This document shows positions 237 to 36,813 of a DNA stretch of 38,336 bases, one piece after another; positions within the stretch are counted from its first letter, which is position 1, and every line of letters starts with the position of its first letter. Below the pieces are notes generated by a model, which saw only the letters and a list, made by a program, of their open reading frames with translations, was not told the DNA's origin and did no database searches. The stretch is from a virus: positions 1-38,336 of the IMG/VR virus record IMGVR_UViG_3300025070_000094, one strand, 5' to 3'. The translations under genes were made by a program, and so were the position numbers.

Positions 237-265
237 TTGACATTAGGTGGGACCCTTGGTATAAT
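237..265 (+). promoter_or_regulatory. Consensus sigma-70 promoter
   Basis: TTGACA at 237-242 and TATAAT at 260-265 are separated by exactly 17 bases, a perfect match to the housekeeping sigma-70 consensus. It points rightward toward the terminase genes, with a leader of about 410 bases. The perfect palindrome at 269-280 covers the predicted start point, so the promoter may be repressible. It is probably read by the host polymerase without phage help. Confidence 0.8.
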
Positions 266-280: not shown

Positions 281-474
281 GTGGGTGAGGTACACCCCTA
301 CATCTATAACATAAGAAAATTAGTTCAGGTGTGTCAAACTGCCGCATATAACAAAGTGCAACAAAGTTGTAACAAAAGTTTATAACATCGGCTACCCACT
401 TAAGAATCACCTATAAAACAACAAAAAAGATTCGTTCTAAAACAAAGGCTTATAAAATAGTTTAAAATTGTGTG

Positions 475-505
475 TTACAAACCACAAAAAAAGCACTTAT
501 ATAAT
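475..505 (+). promoter_or_regulatory. Conserved phage promoter P1 (late operon)
   Basis: TTACAA (475-480), a 17-base spacer (481-497) ending AAAAAGCACT, then TATATAAT (498-505). The same arrangement occurs at 31490-31518 and 36237-36265 on the other strand. The 11-mer GTGTTACAAAC around the -35 box is identical in the 31.5-kb copy. It reads toward the terminase and head genes. The phage-encoded sigma-like protein at 36268-36813 is the obvious candidate reader, but the boxes are close enough to sigma-70 that host polymerase could also use it. Confidence 0.7.
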
Positions 506-588: not shown

Positions 589-609
589 ACATAAGTTTAA
601 TACTTATGT
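589..609. promoter_or_regulatory. Operator-like palindrome ACATAAG-N7-CTTATGT
   Basis: ACATAAG (589-595) and CTTATGT (603-609) form an inverted repeat that extends to 8 bp if one further base on each side is counted. The same two arms with the same 7-base gap occur at 36199-36219, in front of the candidate regulator gene. It lies about 80-100 bases downstream of the predicted start of P1, so it would sit in the leader of the late transcript. Confidence 0.55.
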
Positions 610-684: not shown

Positions 685-1143
685 ATGGTTTTGCCGATGG
701 ATGAGAGCCACAAAGCAATTTTACCTGTCGTTAAGAACATGAGCATCCAAGCAATCCCATATAGTGAAGTTATAGCCAAGAAGGTTAAAGAGGGCATACG
801 TAATGGTGTGTCTGTTAAAGATATACTTGCGTCTATACAAAAGTATCAGAATGCCCCTAGCTCTACAGCTACCTTCTATAAGCTCTACGGACAAGACATA
901 GCTGACACCAAAGCTGATATTGTAGGTCAGATAGGTTCTGTCGTTATACAACAGGCTATTGATGGTGACTTTAAGTCTCAAGAACTGTTCCTACGTTCTA
1001 AAGGTGGTTGGTCACCTACGTCTACTGTTAATGAAGTTGAACAGTCAGAGAACCCCGACGAAGACGAATCAGCTATTGACTCCCTAATTACCCTCTTAGG
1101 AAAGACTAACCCCGATGCAACCCCAAGCGAAGATAACAGCTAA
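685..1143 (+). CDS. Terminase small subunit (probable)
   Basis: The 152-residue product is probably the DNA-recognition subunit of the packaging motor. The assignment comes mainly from position: it directly precedes and overlaps the large terminase by 29 bases. Residues about 40-70 look like a helix-turn-helix region, followed by helical sequence typical of oligomerising small terminases, and the C-terminus is acidic and probably disordered. The ATG at 685 has no strong Shine-Dalgarno sequence, and a second ATG at 697 is possible. Small terminases diverge rapidly, so similarity alone would not settle it. It is the first gene of the rightward late operon. Confidence 0.65.
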   Translation: MVLPMDESHKAILPVVKNMSIQAIPYSEVIAKKVKEGIRNGVSVKDILASIQKYQNAPSSTATFYKLYGQDIADTKADIVGQIGSVVIQQAIDGDFKSQELFLRSKGGWSPTSTVNEVEQSENPDEDESAIDSLITLLGKTNPDATPSEDNS

Positions 1144-2473
1144 CATCTTAAGAGACCTTCCTGATGAGGAAGTAGCTGCTATTCTCAAAGAGCTAGGCCC
1201 AAAGAAAGCGGAAGAGCTAAGACATGACTGGGGATTTTGGGCTAGACCTGAGCAACTGGAGCCTGAAGGTACATGGAACACATGGGTCGCCTTGGCAGGA
1301 CGTGGTTGGGGTAAGACTAGAGCAGGTGCAGAGTGGGTTCGCCATAGGATTAGAAGCGGTGACAAAATTGTACACTGTGTCGCCCCTACAAAAGGTGATG
1401 TCCGAAGAGTTATGGTTGAAGGTGACTCTGGTCTTTTAAGTGTATGTTGGAGTGGTGATGAGACATATCGTGGTAAACACATTGGTTATCCTGTTTGGTC
1501 TCCCACAAACAATAGCTTAACATGGGAGAACGGCAGTAAAGCCGTATTCTTCTCAGCAGAAGACCCAGAACGTCTTCGTGGCCCACAGGCTTACAGTGCA
1601 TGGTGTGATGAGCTTTGTGCTTGGCGTAATGCCCAAGACACTTGGGACATGATGATGTTTGGTCTACGTCTAGGTAAACACCCTAAAGTGTTTGTGACTA
1701 CTACCCCCAAGACTACAAAACTAATAAGAACAATCCTAGACGATGAAAAGACGACGATCAGTACAGGCAGTACGTATGATAATGCTGCTAATCTTGCTGA
1801 CACTTTCCTTGATGCAGTCAGGAAAACCTATGAAGGTACACGTCTTGGTCGCCAAGAACTTTATGCCGAAATACTTGACGAAGCATCGGGTGCTTTATGG
1901 AACAGAACTCTTCTAGCTAAATGCGAGATTGAGAAAGAAGAAGTACCACAGCTTAGTCGTATCGTTATTTCCATCGACCCTGCTGTCACTGCTAATGCAG
2001 AATCAGACATGACAGGTATTGTCGTAGCAGGAATTGACGTAAATGGAACAGCCTATGTGCTAGAAGACCATACTGGTCGCTATACACCACAACAATGGGC
2101 ATCCAAAGCTATACAGTTATATAGAGATCACATGGCTGATCGTATTGTAGCTGAACGTAACCAAGGTGGTGATATGGTACGCCATACACTGCACACAGAG
2201 GATGAAACAGTTCCTGTAAAGCTCGTCCATGCTTCTAGAGGGAAGATGGCTCGGGCTGAACCTGTATCTGCACTATACGAACAAAGTAAAGTAAAGCATG
2301 TGCGGGGATTAAATGATTTAGAAGATCAGATGGTACAGTGGGAACCTTTAGGGTCGATAGGCTCACCAGACCGTCTTGATGCTTTAGTTTGGGCTTTAAC
2401 CGACCTCTCACTTAACGGATATGCAAAACCACAGTTGAAACTAGCGTATTCCAGTGCCAAGGGTTTAATGTAA
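1115..2473 (+). CDS. terL: Terminase large subunit (GTA-type)
   Basis: This ATPase and nuclease pumps DNA into the prohead and cuts it. The 452-residue protein has a Walker A motif GRGWGKT (residues 62-68), a Walker B region AWCDELCAW with D165 and E166, a VTTTP coupling motif near 195, and the RNase H-like nuclease start SIDPA with D288. The N-terminal half closely follows the pattern of gene-transfer-agent terminases of Rhodobacterales (AGRGxGKTRAGAEWVR, then RLRGPQ). It overlaps the small subunit and is followed 4 bases later by the portal. The length is normal for the family. Confidence 0.95.
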   Translation: MQPQAKITANILRDLPDEEVAAILKELGPKKAEELRHDWGFWARPEQLEPEGTWNTWVALAGRGWGKTRAGAEWVRHRIRSGDKIVHCVAPTKGDVRRVMVEGDSGLLSVCWSGDETYRGKHIGYPVWSPTNNSLTWENGSKAVFFSAEDPERLRGPQAYSAWCDELCAWRNAQDTWDMMMFGLRLGKHPKVFVTTTPKTTKLIRTILDDEKTTISTGSTYDNAANLADTFLDAVRKTYEGTRLGRQELYAEILDEASGALWNRTLLAKCEIEKEEVPQLSRIVISIDPAVTANAESDMTGIVVAGIDVNGTAYVLEDHTGRYTPQQWASKAIQLYRDHMADRIVAERNQGGDMVRHTLHTEDETVPVKLVHASRGKMARAEPVSALYEQSKVKHVRGLNDLEDQMVQWEPLGSIGSPDRLDALVWALTDLSLNGYAKPQLKLAYSSAKGLM

Positions 2474-4898: not shown

Positions 4899-6140
4899 AT
4901 GGTCGGTTTTACCCCTTTATCCTCAGCGACACTAGCGGAAAGCCAAAGTGATCCTATAAGATATACGCTTGCGGCTGATGCTATCCTTACTGGAAACCCA
5001 GCACTAGAAGCTGTCGTATTTACAGAGGGCGAAAATTTCGCTACAGCAGGTATCTTATCTGGTACGCCTGATCTAGCAACAGCAAGCCTAACTCAAGCTC
5101 AGACGCTTGCAGCCAGTGGTTTTATCACAGGCACACCTGATCTAGCGACAGCAAGTCTTGTAGAGGCTTACAGCTTCACCGCTAATAATATTACTACTGG
5201 TGCTGCAGAAGTAAACTCAGCTACCTTAAGTTTACCTCAAAGTCTTTCAGCAGATGGTTTTGTTCTAGGTTCTCCTGTACTAGCTACAACAGAGCTTACA
5301 ACAAAGAGGACTTCTTCTCAAAGGCAGCAAGCTGGTAACTGGCAACGCAGAACTTTTGAAGTACCTGATGGTCGTCTTGTCCAAGGTGAACGTGAGATAT
5401 ATAACCTCTTTGGTGATGTTGTCTCTATTGATCTAAAGTCAAAGTCTCTTATTAAGTTTGGTAAGTCTGGTGATCTTTCTGCAGATACTTTAGAGACAGT
5501 CTGGACTGTAGGTGGACATGAAGTTTACGTTACAGATAATACTATAACACATATCTCATCTTCTTCTGCCTCAGATAATCAAGCTATTTTCATTGAGGGG
5601 CATACTGTAACTGGTACAGGTGCAAACTCTCAGTTTACTTTCTTAACTCAGGTTGCAAGCCTTAATGGACAAACACCTGTAGAGTTAAACATACCCTTAG
5701 CACGTATTTCTCATATCTACAACAACGGAAGTACAGAATTGCAAGGAAGAGTTGTTGCCTACGAGAACACCACAACTGTCGGTGGCATACCTTCAGACGC
5801 AACAAAAATTCACATTGATATTCCTCAAGGATTACAAGGTTCACTTAAAGGTGCAACAACATTCAGTGATGAAGACTACCTTATTCTCACTGGGGGGTTC
5901 GGCTCTGTAAGTAAGAAGCAAAATGCTGCAGTAGACTTTTACTTAGAAGTTCGTAAAGCTGGTGGTGTCTTCGTTCAACAAGCTGCTGTAAGTGCCTCTT
6001 CTGGAAGTTCTTGGGAAGTAGAACTAGACCCTGCCGTTATCATACCCAGAAATGCTGATGTACGTATTACAGCGGAAACAGCTTCAAATGGTGCTGTAGT
6101 ATTCGGGGTCTTCAAAGGTTACATAGCGAAAGTCATCTAA
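4899..6140 (+). CDS. Repeat-bearing structural protein, possible head fibre
   Basis: The N-terminal third of this 413-residue protein has five imperfect repeats of about 23 residues, beginning near 31, 54, 78, 100 and 123 (core SGTPDLATASLTQ). This looks like a beta-helix or fibrous shaft. The rest is a beta-rich globular region with a segment NLFGDVVSIDLKSKSLIKFG near 168. No enzymatic motif is visible. It follows the fibre-like gene at 4215 and ends one base before the protease gene, so it is probably a virion component of the head module. Confidence 0.55.
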   Translation: MVGFTPLSSATLAESQSDPIRYTLAADAILTGNPALEAVVFTEGENFATAGILSGTPDLATASLTQAQTLAASGFITGTPDLATASLVEAYSFTANNITTGAAEVNSATLSLPQSLSADGFVLGSPVLATTELTTKRTSSQRQQAGNWQRRTFEVPDGRLVQGEREIYNLFGDVVSIDLKSKSLIKFGKSGDLSADTLETVWTVGGHEVYVTDNTITHISSSSASDNQAIFIEGHTVTGTGANSQFTFLTQVASLNGQTPVELNIPLARISHIYNNGSTELQGRVVAYENTTTVGGIPSDATKIHIDIPQGLQGSLKGATTFSDEDYLILTGGFGSVSKKQNAAVDFYLEVRKAGGVFVQQAAVSASSGSSWEVELDPAVIIPRNADVRITAETASNGAVVFGVFKGYIAKVI

Positions 6141-30706: not shown

Positions 30707-30906
30707 TAGAAGTCACCCCAAACCATACTGCCATCGTCCTTCTCAAATCCTACGGCCTTAACGTAGGTGAAGCCCATAGCTACAGCAAAGTCTGTGAACA
30801 GGTTAGCTAACTGATAGATGTCTTCAACGTCCTCACGATAGATTGTGATGTTACCGTTGTAACCATCCTCTTCTGCATCAGCTACTGCTTCTAAGTTTAC
30901 ATTCAT
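30706..30906 (-). CDS. Small acidic hypothetical protein
   Basis: The 66-residue acidic protein contains NGNITIYREDVEDIYQLANL and TYVKAVGFEKDDGS. It has no recognisable family. It starts at a TAATG junction with the ssDNA-binding-like gene and ends at another with the exonuclease, so it is translated within this replication block and may act with one of them. Confidence 0.6.
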   Translation of the reverse strand: MNVNLEAVADAEEDGYNGNITIYREDVEDIYQLANLFTDFAVAMGFTYVKAVGFEKDDGSMVWGDF

Positions 30907-31457
30907 TAGGCTACCTCAGTCCATGCACCGATGCTGTTAGTTTCTGCAGGTTCGTAGGCTACATGATCTGTAACACCAATAGCGTTCATACGAACACCTG
31001 AACCATTAGAGTAAACATCAAAGATGACTTTAGCTTTCGTACCATTGCCTAACGGCCCATCATCTTCAAAGCTCCACCACCGTTTGTTATCCTCACCTTG
31101 TGTAAGGTCAACGACAGCAATAGGCCCACCATAGTTTACCTCAACAGGCTTACCTTTGTTGTCGGTGAAAGTCTTGATGTTGTCAGAAACTGACCGTTTC
31201 ATCTTCATAAACTTACCGATGCCAAATTCAGCTTCACCATCTACAATCCGTTGACTGCCCATCGGGCTAGGATTTAAACCTTCTGCAAGTAACTTGTCGA
31301 TGTCCTCTTCATTAGTGAAGTATGCGTTCATTACATACTGACCACCTTTGTCTGCAATTTGCTTTGCAATCGTATTCCCATTCGGGTCTCCCATGTCTGC
31401 ATTTTCTGGGAATACTTTAGCATATTGTAAGACCATTTCCATTTCATATCGTGCCAT
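30906..31457 (-). CDS. Probable ssDNA-binding protein (T7 gp2.5-like role)
   Basis: The 183-residue protein is beta-rich with an OB-fold-like C-terminal half (AKVIFDVYSNGSGVRMNAIG). It begins ARYEMEMVLQYAKVFPENAD, a pattern found in single-strand-binding proteins of T7-like marine phages. It lies between the polymerase and the exonuclease. It lacks the very acidic C-terminal tail usual for such proteins (it ends GAWTEVA), so the call is moderate. It has its own conserved promoter at 31490-31518, suggesting a need for high expression. Confidence 0.6.
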   Translation of the reverse strand: MARYEMEMVLQYAKVFPENADMGDPNGNTIAKQIADKGGQYVMNAYFTNEEDIDKLLAEGLNPSPMGSQRIVDGEAEFGIGKFMKMKRSVSDNIKTFTDNKGKPVEVNYGGPIAVVDLTQGEDNKRWWSFEDDGPLGNGTKAKVIFDVYSNGSGVRMNAIGVTDHVAYEPAETNSIGAWTEVA

Positions 31458-31489: not shown

Positions 31490-31518
31490 TATATAAGTGC
31501 TTTTTTCGCAGTTTGTAA
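31490..31518 (-). promoter_or_regulatory. Conserved phage promoter P2 (ssDNA-binding protein operon)
   Basis: Read on the minus strand: TTACAA (31518-31513), a 17-base spacer ending AAAAAAGCACT (31512-31496), then TATATA (31495-31490) and TAATT. The box order and spacing are identical to P1 at 475-505 and P3 at 36237-36265. It lies in the 83-base gap between the polymerase stop and the ssDNA-binding gene, one of the few gaps in the leftward operon. Confidence 0.7.
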
Positions 31519-31540
31519 CACTAAAGTAGAAATTTATTTT

Positions 31541-33382
31541 CTAATGGATGTCTGCGTATGTCCGTCCGAACTGTGCATCTATCCCAAGTGGTACATTTAG
31601 TTGAATTTCTTGGTTTACTTGGTCGATTGCCATAGTCATAATGTTTTCTTCTTTGTCCTCATTCCCCTCTTCTACTAGAGTTATAATTTCGTCGTGGAAC
31701 TGACCGATAGTCTTTAGTCCCATACCACGACATCCCTTAACCCAACTGTCGAAACAGAATACACCTGTACCTTGGTTCAGCGTACTGAAACGATCCTTGT
31801 CAGACCGTAAGCTGTACCAGAATTTAGATACAGGATTCTGTACCCAAGCAGAGCCAAATAGTTCACGAACACGTAGACCCTCTGCCACCTTCTGTACTGA
31901 CCAGTTACGTGACCAAAAGGCATCTAGCAGTGTCTGTGCCTCAGACTTACTCATACCTGTCTCACGGGCCAGTTTAGCGGCTCCTACACCATACGTAGCA
32001 CTGTAGTTTACCACCTTGTAATTCTTACGTAGTGCCTTAAGGCTACGTTCACCTGAATTGTGTTTGTCGATGTCGTCTTGTGTGACAACACCTGCGTGTT
32101 TAGCAAGGTCAAGGTGCGGATCAAACCCATCCTTAGACATTTCAGCGACATAATCAGGATCAAGTGGTTTCATGTAGTGTCTCTTTGTCGTATCCTCTAA
32201 CGAAGTCATATCAGCACCACACAGAGTGTAACCTTCGGGTGCAGTTAGACACCCCCTGATTTCTTTTCCGTAGGGTTTATCAACCGATGGCAAGTTGACC
32301 AGTGGTCTTGCGTGACGAAAGCGTAAGGTGTTAGTGAACCCTGCAACAGTTGCTTGCACGTATCCATCGTTCTCTGTTTCGACCATTGATCTAAGAACTC
32401 CAATACGATGAGAAAGAACAGACAAGCCATCAAGCAGACTAATAGCAGGTTCTTGTTCAACCAGTTCACGTACTGAGGGACAGAGTTCTCCGTCTTTCCG
32501 TACCTGTTCCAATTTCCGTTCATCACCAGTTACCTTATCCTTTAGGTATTTGAAGGTACGAGGCTTCCACCCCAAAGAGAAAAGCCAATCTTTGACCTGC
32601 TCCACACTATTAGGATTTGCTCGTTCTTCTCCTGTTTTGACCACCATAGACAATGTAGAAATCGGTTGGTGTTCTTGCTTGCATAACTGAACCCATTTTT
32701 CGCCGTGACTAGAAAGTGTACCGTCTTTTTTGTACATGACTTTCGGTTTTGTCTTGGTAGTAAATAGATTACGTTTTGGCATAGCATCAGCCAAGGCTTC
32801 TGTCTTTTCATGCTTTAGGTCTTCCCATTCCTGTAGATGGGCTTTTGCTTTCTCTACATCTAATTTCCATCGTAGGGTCTCCTGTTCTCTTGCACAATCC
32901 ATCTTGAACATAAGGTAATCAATAAAGCGGTCTTTCTCCCCACTGTCCTGATACAGTTTGTTCAGCTTCAAGTCCAAGTCACGGTGTAACCGTGTGTTGA
33001 TCTTAACGTCCTCATTGCAGCGGTGGGCATACTCTTCGGGTGTTAGGGTATTCCAGTCCTTGATCACTGGTTTAGGTACTCCATAGTCCTCTCCGTAGCC
33101 CTCAAGCCCATGTCGCATACGATCATGGTTTAGATACCACGACAAAGGTAGAGTGTCGATCAAACGAGACTTTACTTCGATGCCTAACACCTTTTCCACT
33201 GCAGGGATGTCAAACCTGATGATGTTGTGACCAATGAGTGTAGGTGCTTCCGTAAAGAAGATACGCATAGCCTCATAGTCATGGGTATGATGCACATTTC
33301 CATCGTCCCCCTGCCAAGATAAAACGTGTATCTTTGTTAGTTCGTCTAGTAGACCGTCTGTTTCAATATCGAATACTGGCAA
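31541..33382 (-). CDS. polA: DNA polymerase, family A (T7-type) with 3'-5' exonuclease
   Basis: The 613-residue replicative polymerase has the proofreading motifs FDIETDG (D5, E7), GHNIIRFDIP and the third motif near HRCNEDVKIN. Polymerase motif A is ADMTSLED with D391, motif B is KVVNYSATYG with K456 and Y460, and motif C is HDEI (563-566). Tyr at 460, the position of E. coli Phe762, is the T7-like state. It starts at TTG 33382 directly after the helicase stop, with GAGAGG upstream; the first internal ATG would delete the exonuclease motif. Confidence 0.95.
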   Translation of the reverse strand: MPVFDIETDGLLDELTKIHVLSWQGDDGNVHHTHDYEAMRIFFTEAPTLIGHNIIRFDIPAVEKVLGIEVKSRLIDTLPLSWYLNHDRMRHGLEGYGEDYGVPKPVIKDWNTLTPEEYAHRCNEDVKINTRLHRDLDLKLNKLYQDSGEKDRFIDYLMFKMDCAREQETLRWKLDVEKAKAHLQEWEDLKHEKTEALADAMPKRNLFTTKTKPKVMYKKDGTLSSHGEKWVQLCKQEHQPISTLSMVVKTGEERANPNSVEQVKDWLFSLGWKPRTFKYLKDKVTGDERKLEQVRKDGELCPSVRELVEQEPAISLLDGLSVLSHRIGVLRSMVETENDGYVQATVAGFTNTLRFRHARPLVNLPSVDKPYGKEIRGCLTAPEGYTLCGADMTSLEDTTKRHYMKPLDPDYVAEMSKDGFDPHLDLAKHAGVVTQDDIDKHNSGERSLKALRKNYKVVNYSATYGVGAAKLARETGMSKSEAQTLLDAFWSRNWSVQKVAEGLRVRELFGSAWVQNPVSKFWYSLRSDKDRFSTLNQGTGVFCFDSWVKGCRGMGLKTIGQFHDEIITLVEEGNEDKEENIMTMAIDQVNQEIQLNVPLGIDAQFGRTYADIH

Positions 33383-34960
33383 TTATATAACCTCTCGTAA
33401 TGTAAACGTATCGTAGTTGAACCGCATCTTACCTGCTGATCCTTCCTCAGAGGATGGACGGTTCTTCTCAATCTTGAGATACGTTGTGTTGCGTTCCTGT
33501 AGGTCTTCAGCTTCTTTGTCACGATACAAGTCGATGATAACTGATGCACGTTGACCAATCATCTTACAATACTTGAAGTCACCGTTCTCGTTAGTGTGAC
33601 CAATGCTTACGATACCCACGTTTAATTCTGCTGCAAGTTTAGACAGACGTACTGACAGGTCAGCCAACTGTTGTTCTTTGCTTTCCTCAGACGATCCAGA
33701 GATTACATCTTGGATAGGCTCAAAGAAGATAAACTTACATCCACATGCCTGACTAAAGAACCTAATCTGGTCAATCAAATCTTCAGCACTTGCACCATCA
33801 CCCAAGAAGAACTGATAGAAGTTTTCATCTTTGGTGATGTCTTTGATAGCTTGCACTACATCATCACCACGGTTCTTTAGATCAATCAAATCCCTACGTG
33901 TCAGGTTGTCGTTCAGGTGGTACGACACAAGACCAAGTAGTGACCTTAGTTTGGTTTCTTCTAGATGCCATGCAGCAATCGGTATGCCTTTCTGTAGCAT
34001 GTTGTATTCTAGATACCGCATTAGCTCTGTCTTACCGATCCCTGTAGGTGCTTTGAACACTGTAAAATGTCCTTGCATCAAACCAAGTATCTTGTCGTCT
34101 AGTGCCTGAATACCTGTCTCCACGTAGATATGCTCTGGTGTATCGTGATACAACGACAGAAACTGGTCTGCAGTGTTTAGGATATTCTCTGGTGTATACT
34201 TCTTTGCATTCCACCATGCACTCTTAAACTCAGCTTGCGCACCATTCTGTAGAAACTCGTTAGCGTCCTTGTATTTGTCGTGTGGTACACGATAGACCTT
34301 GTTAGGGAATAGTTTAGCCATACGATCAGCAAGAGAATTACCTGCGTCATCTGTATCGACAGACAGGATGATCTTCTCAAATCCGTCCAACCATTCCTTA
34401 CAGTTCTCCCAGAGCTTCTTAGAGGGCGTAGCAGAGGGTAAGGACACAACAGGGTTAGTGTAGCTGCTCTTAAGCATTTGTGCCACTGACAGGGCATCTA
34501 GTTCGCCCTCTGTTACCGTTACCATCTTAGACGACCCAGATGTAAACAGGTTCATACCGAACAGTTCATCACCCTTGAAACCATCTTTGGTGTAAAAGGC
34601 TTTCTCGTCTAAACGACGAACCTTAATTCCCCCGCTGGGGTATACATACTCTTGACGATCTGGGAATGTCTTTACGCCGTAGTCTTCCATTGTCGTAGCA
34701 TTGATACCACGCATGGATTGATAACGACCATCATCCTTACTCTCTATCTTCTTTGGTGTATAATCAATTACTGCCATATCATTCCAATCATTATTCCCAC
34801 TGGTGGGGTATTTCTCTTTTGCCCAAGCGAAGGTTTCTCTCTTCGATGGGTAGCCTTGGCTGCAAGCGTGGCACTTCCCATAACCATCAGTGTTGTAACT
34901 GAAAGCATCAGAAGAGCCACACGACACATAAGGACACGGTTTGTGTGCTAGTTCTGCCAT
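33383..34960 (-). CDS. Primase-helicase (T7 gp4-like)
   Basis: This 525-residue protein unites primase and replicative helicase. A zinc ribbon is formed by C9, C14, C30 and C33. The TOPRIM domain has E151 (TEGELDALS) and D202/D204 (SVDTDDAG). The RecA-like helicase domain has Walker A APTGIGKT (304-311), then FFEPIQDVISG and IGHTNENGD. The size is close to T7 gp4. It is followed immediately by the polymerase gene and would form the replication fork with it. Confidence 0.95.
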   Translation of the reverse strand: MAELAHKPCPYVSCGSSDAFSYNTDGYGKCHACSQGYPSKRETFAWAKEKYPTSGNNDWNDMAVIDYTPKKIESKDDGRYQSMRGINATTMEDYGVKTFPDRQEYVYPSGGIKVRRLDEKAFYTKDGFKGDELFGMNLFTSGSSKMVTVTEGELDALSVAQMLKSSYTNPVVSLPSATPSKKLWENCKEWLDGFEKIILSVDTDDAGNSLADRMAKLFPNKVYRVPHDKYKDANEFLQNGAQAEFKSAWWNAKKYTPENILNTADQFLSLYHDTPEHIYVETGIQALDDKILGLMQGHFTVFKAPTGIGKTELMRYLEYNMLQKGIPIAAWHLEETKLRSLLGLVSYHLNDNLTRRDLIDLKNRGDDVVQAIKDITKDENFYQFFLGDGASAEDLIDQIRFFSQACGCKFIFFEPIQDVISGSSEESKEQQLADLSVRLSKLAAELNVGIVSIGHTNENGDFKYCKMIGQRASVIIDLYRDKEAEDLQERNTTYLKIEKNRPSSEEGSAGKMRFNYDTFTLREVI

Positions 34961-35383: not shown

Positions 35384-36166
35384 CTAGTTTACAACTTTAA
35401 GTTCTGGTTTCTCTGTCAAGAAGTCTTGTAATTCTGGTTCTACAAGGTCTAACACTTCCTTTAACGACAAAAACCATTTTGCATAGTCTCTTGCGATACT
35501 TAATCCTACGTCATCTTGATCATATCCTTCCGTTATCTTATCCAGAAGCACCTGTGCAGCATCTTCTGTATTTCCACTGTACCGCTTGCTGTACATCTGT
35601 GCGATACCTTTAATTGCACCCATAGCCTCTGACACATTGTAGTCTGGTACAGTTGGCATGGATGCCTTACGTTCTTTTACTTTCTCCGCTGCCTGAAACG
35701 GCGTTATCTTTCCCTCATCTAAGTCAGTATTTACATCATTAAACTCAGGTAATGTTCTAGCGTCATTGTAGTTGGCCTTAGTCTCATTTACCTCTGGTGC
35801 AGTCATAGGTTTATCTGACGACACAATTTCTTCACGTAATTCCTCTGGGGCAGATAGGAGTGCCTCTACAGCGTCATGACTAAAGTTTTGTACCGTGTAC
35901 GGTACTTTTCTAATCCTGTTTAATCTTTTACCGTATTGATAAGAAATTCCACAATCATCAGCAAACCTGCCAACAAACCCTGCCATCTTGTTGTTTTCTG
36001 ACAGGTGAATATCAGCAGCCCTGTTCATCCATTCTAGCTTACGATGAAAGGCACTGCCCATATCAACATCAGCTTGCTTAAAGCCCTCAACGCAATCATG
36101 CCAGTTGTAAACGACATCAGAAGATGCCTTAGCCATAAGTTCATCAAAGTATTCGTCATCATCCAT
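35384..36166 (-). CDS. Candidate DNA-binding regulator (autoregulated?)
   Basis: The 260-residue acidic protein has a helix-turn-helix-like segment near 78-105 (GFVGRFADDCGISYQYGKRL, NRIRKVP) and helical flanks including ITPFQAAEKVKERKA. It may be a ParB-like or replication regulator; the family is not certain. I chose ATG 36166, with AGAAGGAAA upstream, over ATG 36202. Its leader holds promoter P3 and the palindrome ACATAAG-N7-CTTATGT. The palindrome recurs before the late operon, which suggests the protein binds both sites. Confidence 0.5.
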   Translation of the reverse strand: MDDDEYFDELMAKASSDVVYNWHDCVEGFKQADVDMGSAFHRKLEWMNRAADIHLSENNKMAGFVGRFADDCGISYQYGKRLNRIRKVPYTVQNFSHDAVEALLSAPEELREEIVSSDKPMTAPEVNETKANYNDARTLPEFNDVNTDLDEGKITPFQAAEKVKERKASMPTVPDYNVSEAMGAIKGIAQMYSKRYSGNTEDAAQVLLDKITEGYDQDDVGLSIARDYAKWFLSLKEVLDLVEPELQDFLTEKPELKVVN

Positions 36167-36198
36167 ACTTATGTTTCCTTCTGTAGTAGTAATAGTAT

Positions 36199-36219
36199 AC
36201 ATAAGACTAAAACTTATGT
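36199..36219. promoter_or_regulatory. Operator-like palindrome ACATAAG-N7-CTTATGT
   Basis: ACATAAG (36199-36205) and CTTATGT (36213-36219) are separated by 7 bases, the same as at 589-609. It lies about 10-30 bases downstream of the predicted start of promoter P3. A further half-site CTTATGT lies at 36170-36176, next to the start codon of the candidate regulator. Binding by that regulator is inference. Confidence 0.6.
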
Positions 36220-36236
36220 TTTACAAGGGACACTTG

Positions 36237-36265
36237 CTTATAAGTGCTTTTTGTTGATTTAGTAA
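36237..36265 (-). promoter_or_regulatory. Conserved phage promoter P3 (regulator operon)
   Basis: On the minus strand: TTACTA (36265-36260), 17 bases ending AAAAAGCACT (36259-36243), then TATAAG (36242-36237). It shares box order, exact spacing and the 14-mer AAAAAGCACTTATA with P1 and P2. It lies just after the sigma-like gene stop and drives the candidate regulator and perhaps the replication genes beyond. Confidence 0.7.
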
Positions 36266-36267
36266 CA

Positions 36268-36813
36268 TCACAAATTGTTACGGATTTTTTCGAGTGCTGC
36301 TTTTTCGTGTCGTGATACCCACATTTTGTTACGACCCATATGAACACCTACATCATCTTGTGTAAGGTCATCCCAGTATCTCATACGAATGATTGCCCAC
36401 TCTTCTTGTGTTAGGTGGCTGACAGCGACAGTCTGAACCCTAGCAAACCATTCTTTCTGTTCGTACAGGTCTTCTGTCGATGGTGCTTGCGACATGTATT
36501 CTTCATACTCAACAGAATCAGCATACAGTGCCTGATGTAAGGCAGTAGCAGTCCAACCATCAACATCATCATCAGCACTCATTGCCTTTGCTTGATGCGA
36601 CTTAGGCACTTTAACAGGTGATCTAGACAAGTTGTAATACTCATTCATCACTGCTTGTGCATGAGAATACAGTAGGTTCTTGTCGGTTTTACCTTCAGCG
36701 ACCATTTCTAGCACTTTTACGACACCTTCAGACACTAGGTCGTCATACTCTTGTGGATCGTTATATTTCCTCGCTAGGGATCGACATATTTTCATAATAT
36801 CATCGTTATTCAT
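36268..36813 (-). CDS. Sigma-70-family transcription factor
   Basis: The 181-residue protein has the two-domain layout of small sigma factors. Residues 5-65 resemble region 2 (SLARKYNDPQEYDDLVSEGV, then VKVLEMV and NEYYNLSRSP). Residues 126-180 resemble region 4, with a helix-turn-helix (LTQEEWAIIRMRYWDDLTQD, GVHMGRNKMWVSRHEKAALE). The linker is acidic. ATG 36813 is preferred because AAGGAG lies 7 bases upstream; ATG 36819 would be only 1 base from it. It would direct host polymerase to phage promoters, the three shared ones being candidates. Confidence 0.75.
   Translation of the reverse strand: MNNDDIMKICRSLARKYNDPQEYDDLVSEGVVKVLEMVAEGKTDKNLLYSHAQAVMNEYYNLSRSPVKVPKSHQAKAMSADDDVDGWTATALHQALYADSVEYEEYMSQAPSTEDLYEQKEWFARVQTVAVSHLTQEEWAIIRMRYWDDLTQDDVGVHMGRNKMWVSRHEKAALEKIRNNL

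Follow-up and report, generated by a model that had tools for sequence, protein, structure and literature searches.

The locus raises the question of what reads a promoter-like sequence that recurs at three places in a viral genome, one of them directly beside a gene for a sigma-like protein. The window, by which we mean the whole 38,336-base virus record analysed here, is related to the marine Roseobacter phage CRP-6. A first-pass annotation had claimed a small sigma-70-like protein at 36268-36813, three sites that share TTAC(A/T)A, a 17-base spacer, TATA and a common 14-mer, and a dedicated reader of those sites beyond host sigma-70. A scan of the window found the 14-mer AAAAAGCACTTATA exactly at 488-501 (plus strand) and at 31492-31505 and 36239-36252 (minus strand). 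It was the sole 14-mer with three or more copies, and no 14-mer reached three copies in any of 200 dinucleotide shuffles of the window. The full unit TGTTAC-N9-AAAAAGCACTTATA occurred exactly three times and the spacing TTAC(A/T)A-N17-TATA was kept in each, so the description of the three sites held exactly. The next-best match, at 33359 on the plus strand, had 2 mismatches in 15 and lay antisense near the polymerase/primase junction, and a relaxed pattern gave no further convincing site in the window. We define the three as sites A, B and C (Table 1).

Table 1. Coordinates of the sigma gene, the promoter sites and the genes around them
Feature	Position	Strand	Evidence or remark
P0001, two-domain sigma-70-family protein, 181 aa	36268..36813	-	Translation, Pfam and PDB profile hits
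Promoter site A, TGTTAC-N14-GCACTTATA	36239..36267	-	Lineage-specific versions at the same place in relatives
Promoter site B, TGTTAC-N14-GCACTTATA	31492..31520	-	Lineage-specific versions at the same place in relatives
Promoter site C, TGTTAC-N14-GCACTTATA	473..501	+	Lineage-specific versions in L018, CRP-6, L218, L227 and L202
Gene for 272 aa, first downstream of site A	35384..36202	-	No convincing family; replaced in some relatives
DNA primase/helicase, block headed by site A	33383..34960	-	PHROG 239, 1e-102
Family A DNA polymerase, block headed by site A	31541..33382	-	PHROG 17, 8e-110
Gene directly after site B, conserved unknown	30906..31457	-	No Pfam/PHROG match; AF2 pLDDT 41
Gene for 152 aa, first downstream of site C; resembles a terminase small subunit in position only	685..1143	+	No family assigned; overlaps terL and is conserved among relatives
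Terminase large subunit, late operon	1115..2473	+	Pfam Terminase_6N/6C

Site A begins at the first base past the sigma stop codon and heads gene 35384-36202 together with the helicase/primase-polymerase block, site B lies between the DNA polymerase gene and gene 30906-31457, and site C heads the packaging/structural (late) operon, as had been claimed. The gene after site A had been called a candidate regulator, which was not backed: no convincing family was found, and several close relatives (e.g., L003 and L018) carry other genes in its place while the site remains. Site A is better described as the head of the helicase/primase-polymerase block. The claim that gene 30906-31457 encodes an ssDNA-binding protein was unsupported and remains unconfirmed, with no family match and a poor structural model. 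A version of that gene about 30% identical substitutes for it in L011, L015, L024 and L026.

The open reading frame for the sigma-like protein, here called P0001, is real and lies on the minus strand, and that claim held. P0001 comprises region 2 (about residues 5 to 80), a linker, and region 4 (about residues 130 to 181), and region 3 was not detected in it. The region 4 helix-turn-helix matched Sigma70_r4 (PF04545) with an E value of 3e-13 and 49 bits against a cut-off of 24.1, satisfying the family criterion. Region 2 scored 19 bits against PF04542, under the curated cut-off of 24, and was aligned to SigB region 2 via a VxVP motif, a weak match; the assignment is tentative, with support from the covariation of residues 41 to 80 with the -10 word described below. 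A profile built from 25 relatives matched SigF, SigB, FliA and RpoD in the PDB. Foldseek comparison of the AF2 model gave sigB in an RNA polymerase-promoter complex as the top match, with modest scores and a low TM, the latter likely due to floating domains. Because the overall TM was low, our residue mapping rests on sequence alignment.

P0001 resembles the group 3 and group 4 sigma factors (SigB, SigF, FliA, ECF) in combining a putative region 2 with a region 4 and in its best PDB sequence and fold matches (SigF, SigB and FliA), but differs from them in lacking a detected region 3, in being phage encoded and in having no bacterial or prophage relative in a search of GTDB genome contigs. Assignment to the ECF sigma factors (group 4) in particular was considered and rejected: the two-domain layout fits, but PF08281 scored 15.7 bits, below its cut-off of 25.7, and PF04545 was the better match. 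We conclude that P0001 is very likely a phage sigma factor of the sigma-70 family, with core binding and transcription start inferred.

To place the motif among relatives, we compared the window with CRP-6, the closest isolate, and with IMG/VR contigs; most relatives are metagenome contigs. The replication and terminase genes of CRP-6 are homologous to those of the window, and CRP-6 gp14, annotated as hypothetical, is a diverged homologue of P0001. Variants of this one sigma lineage range from about 28 to 99% identity. The plain 14-mer occurred in at least 120 IMG/VR stretches and was too unspecific, and the full motif was used instead. When 2.9 million viral contigs were searched exhaustively for exact matches to TGTTAC-N9-AAAARGCACTTATA, 27 stretches were returned, all beside the terminase, polymerase or sigma genes of this phage group. 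The first-pass annotation had proposed asking whether relatives without the sigma gene keep the motif. That check was run, and the full motif was found only in this phage group. Two relatives, L242 and L244, show 87 to 88% identity in the terminase and about 51% in the polymerase, together with other replication genes; no sigma was detectable between polymerase and terminase, although the contigs are fragmentary and a sigma elsewhere is not excluded. Both carry TTGACA...TATATA at the two places checked, that is, TTGACA-type promoters instead of the motif.

Within the group, the -35 and -10 words of the sites differ between lineages. CRP-6 has GTTGAC-N14-GACGTCATA at the three matching places. 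L018 is about 98% identical to the window in the polymerase, the site B gene and terL but only 72% identical in the sigma, and all three of its sites are altered to TGTATA...GTACATATA. The -10 word is GTCGTTATA in L010 and L162, GTATTTATA in L009, GCTGTTATA in L016, GTACTTATA in L017, L021 and L163, GTACATATA in L018, L022 to L026, L164 and L264, GTGCCTATA in L218, L219, L228 and L202, GTATCCCTAT in L227 and L235, and GCCCCTAT in L159 and L160. Across the group, no fewer than eight different -10 words and four -35 words can be matched to the sigma of the genome that carries them.

The -10 word agreed between unlinked sites of one genome in 15 of 16 lineages, against a permutation mean of 1.7 (p ~5e-6). 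Agreement within genomes exceeded that between genomes only at -35 positions 4 to 6 and -10 positions 2 to 5, and not in the spacer (p=0.21). The permutation p values are optimistic, as the lineages are related and not independent, and the word lists behind the covariation and position-wise tests were transcribed by hand from printed sequences. The only discordant genome was L008, in which the sigma-adjacent site has GTCGTTATA and the polymerase-adjacent site B (5519-5547) has GTACATATA; a chimeric assembly, a recent recombination, a real exception and a phage in transition from one sigma type to another are all possible. Separately, site B of L117 (upstream of 5378, minus strand) pairs TGTATA with GCACTTATA, a pairing whose sigma has not yet been seen.

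The concordance could reflect shared ancestry or an assembly artefact, with linked blocks of diverged DNA travelling together. In its favor stand the relatedness of the sequences, the predominance of metagenome contigs among them and the discordant genome L008. Against it, flanks and spacers do not follow the word changes, the sites are kilobases apart with genes between them 98 to 99% identical, the isolate CRP-6 shows the concordance too, and single words reappear in combination with other partner regions (GCAC in L020; GTACA in L018, L022, L164 and L264). We consider this explanation very unlikely. Alternatively, the three repeats could be promoter-like operators or signals for replication or packaging, as the repeat is exact, intergenic and present in three copies. 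All three copies, however, point into a downstream gene block and keep the -35/-10 spacing, and they covary with the sigma gene and not with replication or packaging genes, which all but excludes that possibility. The reading we retain is that the sites are promoters matched to the phage sigma.

The distance between -10 words correlated with distance in sigma residues 41 to 80 (Spearman 0.69; Mantel p 5e-4); residues 1 to 40, 81 to 145 and 146 to 181 showed no such correlation. The distance between -35 words correlated with residues 146 to 181 (0.64), but also with residues 81 to 145 (0.60), and the -35 correlation was weaker in a nine-lineage test (p=0.026). Serine or lysine at residue 50 paired with T or A, respectively, at -10 position 5 in all 14 lineages tested, and -10 positions 2 to 4 were best tracked by residues 72 and 76. 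Aligned by eye, residue 72 would correspond to RpoD H455, which contacts the extended -10, and this is a lead only. For the -35 word, the top associations were recognition-helix residues 163, 164 and 167, which fall on R584, E585 and R588 of E. coli RpoD provided that the alignment runs without a gap to its last pair (178=599). In RpoD, those three residues read the -35 element.

Closely related genomes localize the changes further. Between the window and L008, codons 41 to 80 of the sigma gene carry 16 nonsynonymous and 5 synonymous changes, and codons 1 to 40 carry 1 and 2. The sigma genes of L163 and L164 differ mainly in codons 31 to 60 and their sigma-adjacent -10 words differ exactly at the T/A base; L021 and L022 likewise differ mainly in codons 31 to 60 and at the one T/A base of the -10 word. 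The differences between sigmas are mosaic, and therefore cassette recombination is suggested.

The code also held outside the lineages from which it was drawn: L162 to L164 fit it out-of-sample. Moreover, for the odd L008 site, which combines TGTTAC with GTACATATA, the code called for an NKMWVSR helix and a KSAA...VPVQGKA cassette in the matching sigma. A pattern search for TGTTAC with GTACATATA led to L264, the sigma of which has HNKMWVSRKEK and YKSAAIQMNEYYNIRKHTVFVPVQGKAKG, and both sites of L264 read TGTTAC and GTACATATA, the predicted combination. For the unmatched pairing in L117, the code predicts a QVWV-type helix with a PKSxxA cassette. We conclude, from sequence, that the reading cassettes of the sigma and the promoters change together in a cassette-like manner, in many cases with about 98% identity retained elsewhere in the genome.

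One could still suppose that host sigma-70 itself reads the sites, as common promoters of the form TTACAA-N17-TATATA, and that the conserved GCACT is the target of another phage protein, an activator or a repressor, distinct from the phage sigma. The hexamers and spacing are indeed sigma-70-like. The words, however, change in step with those sigma residues that should recognize the -35 and -10 elements, a separate regulator leaves unexplained the -35 word TGTATA and the matched changes at residues 163, 164 and 167 (L018, L163/L164), and the gene adjacent to site A is swapped in relatives while the site is unchanged. This explanation is thus very unlikely. The dedicated reader that had been claimed is strongly supported by comparison, because the -35 and -10 words covary with sigma residues and across unlinked sites and because the L264 prediction was met; transcription and temporal order are inferred. 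We conclude that the phage sigma, acting on the host core enzyme, very likely directs transcription from sites A, B and C, although, in the absence of transcription data, its binding to core, the initiation events and their timing are matters of inference.

In the mechanism we propose, host sigma-70 would first transcribe the early genes, including the sigma gene in the leftward operon. The phage sigma would then bind host core RNA polymerase and bring it to the three sites, firing the helicase/primase-polymerase block from A, the gene after the polymerase from B, and the packaging and structural genes from C. The region 4 helix (residues 163, 164 and 167) would read the -35 word TGTTAC, and the end of region 2 (residues ~44 to 76, above all 50, 72 and 76) would read the extended -10 word GCACTTATA. 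Production of the sigma would thereby switch transcription to replication and late genes. Word switching is inferred to arise probably from cassette recombination, with selection against reading, or being read by, co-infecting relatives as a plausible driver. A bolder version holds that cassettes (one for the -35, two for the -10) have been exchanged repeatedly and all three promoters rewritten each time, such that co-infecting relatives are mutually unreadable and each phage keeps a private channel with a readable residue-to-base code; on the present evidence, we lean slightly against it.

Two further sequence features lie near the sites. Positions 237 to 265 (plus strand) contain TTGACA-N17-TATAAT, an extended sigma-70 promoter matching at 12 of 12 positions and aimed at the late operon. 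It lies about 208 bases upstream of site C and is conserved in L003 and L018. No plus-strand open reading frame of at least 50 residues lies between it and site C, and it is possible that it yields a noncoding early transcript. In addition, a second lineage-specific element is present downstream of sites A and C, at 589-609 (plus strand) and at 36212-36219 and 36167-36174 (minus strand) in the window. The bases common to the A and C copies number 26 in L218/L219 (with 2 mismatches), 21 in CRP-6 and 18 in L018/L003, against nulls of at most 9 to 12. In the window the element is ACATAAGT, one copy of which is palindromic, and sharing between A and C there does not exceed the null; ACNTAAGT shows enrichment in the window (18 versus 7.6). 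The element could be an operator or a 5′ untranslated region element of an unknown regulator.

There is precedent for phages that encode a sigma factor with late promoters of its own: gp47 of phage 7-11 and gp36 of phiEco32 are late sigma factors of this kind (PMC8948821, PMC4331800). The earlier suggestion of a switch not previously described thus holds only for this phage group (PMC8948821). Like those phages, the window pairs a phage sigma, here inferred to act on the host core, with a few phage promoters before middle or late blocks, and in both cases promoters stand at matching genome places in relatives while the consensus differs (PMC8948821). By sequence only, the defining combination of a phage sigma and few phage-specific promoters before non-early blocks is met. 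Whereas gp47 and gp36 share about 15% identity and are judged to have been acquired independently, here one sigma lineage has many variants, and the window group switches words within near-identical genomes, the -35 and -10 separately. A tblastn search of 50,697 phage records with P0001 listed neither phiEco32 nor 7-11. By analogy, then, the window system may work like the late-sigma system of phiEco32 and 7-11, and on that search it does not count as a homologous member.

T7-type single-subunit RNA polymerases and their promoters co-diverge between relatives, and the window group is similar in that transcription specificity and promoter set change in concert. The protein is different, however, and here it is the host polymerase that would be redirected, by a sigma whose two reading modules are independent. 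The words "sigma" and "promoter" do not occur in either of two papers on CRP-6-type roseophages (PMC6918029, PMC8528129), and phage sigma/promoter coevolution of this kind was not described in the literature searched, from which most subscription journals were outside the scope. We conclude that what is new here is the fast, modular and readable co-switching of one sigma lineage and its promoters between otherwise near-identical genomes. Further sigma/promoter pairs or hybrids were predicted to exist among phiEco32-like phages (PMC8948821), and the pairs of the window group fit that prediction. The group offers a natural experiment on how individual sigma residues are matched to promoter bases, testable with native parts, and supplies sigma/promoter pairs that are candidates for mutual orthogonality. 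It also suggests a route by which an abundant marine phage group may take over host transcription.
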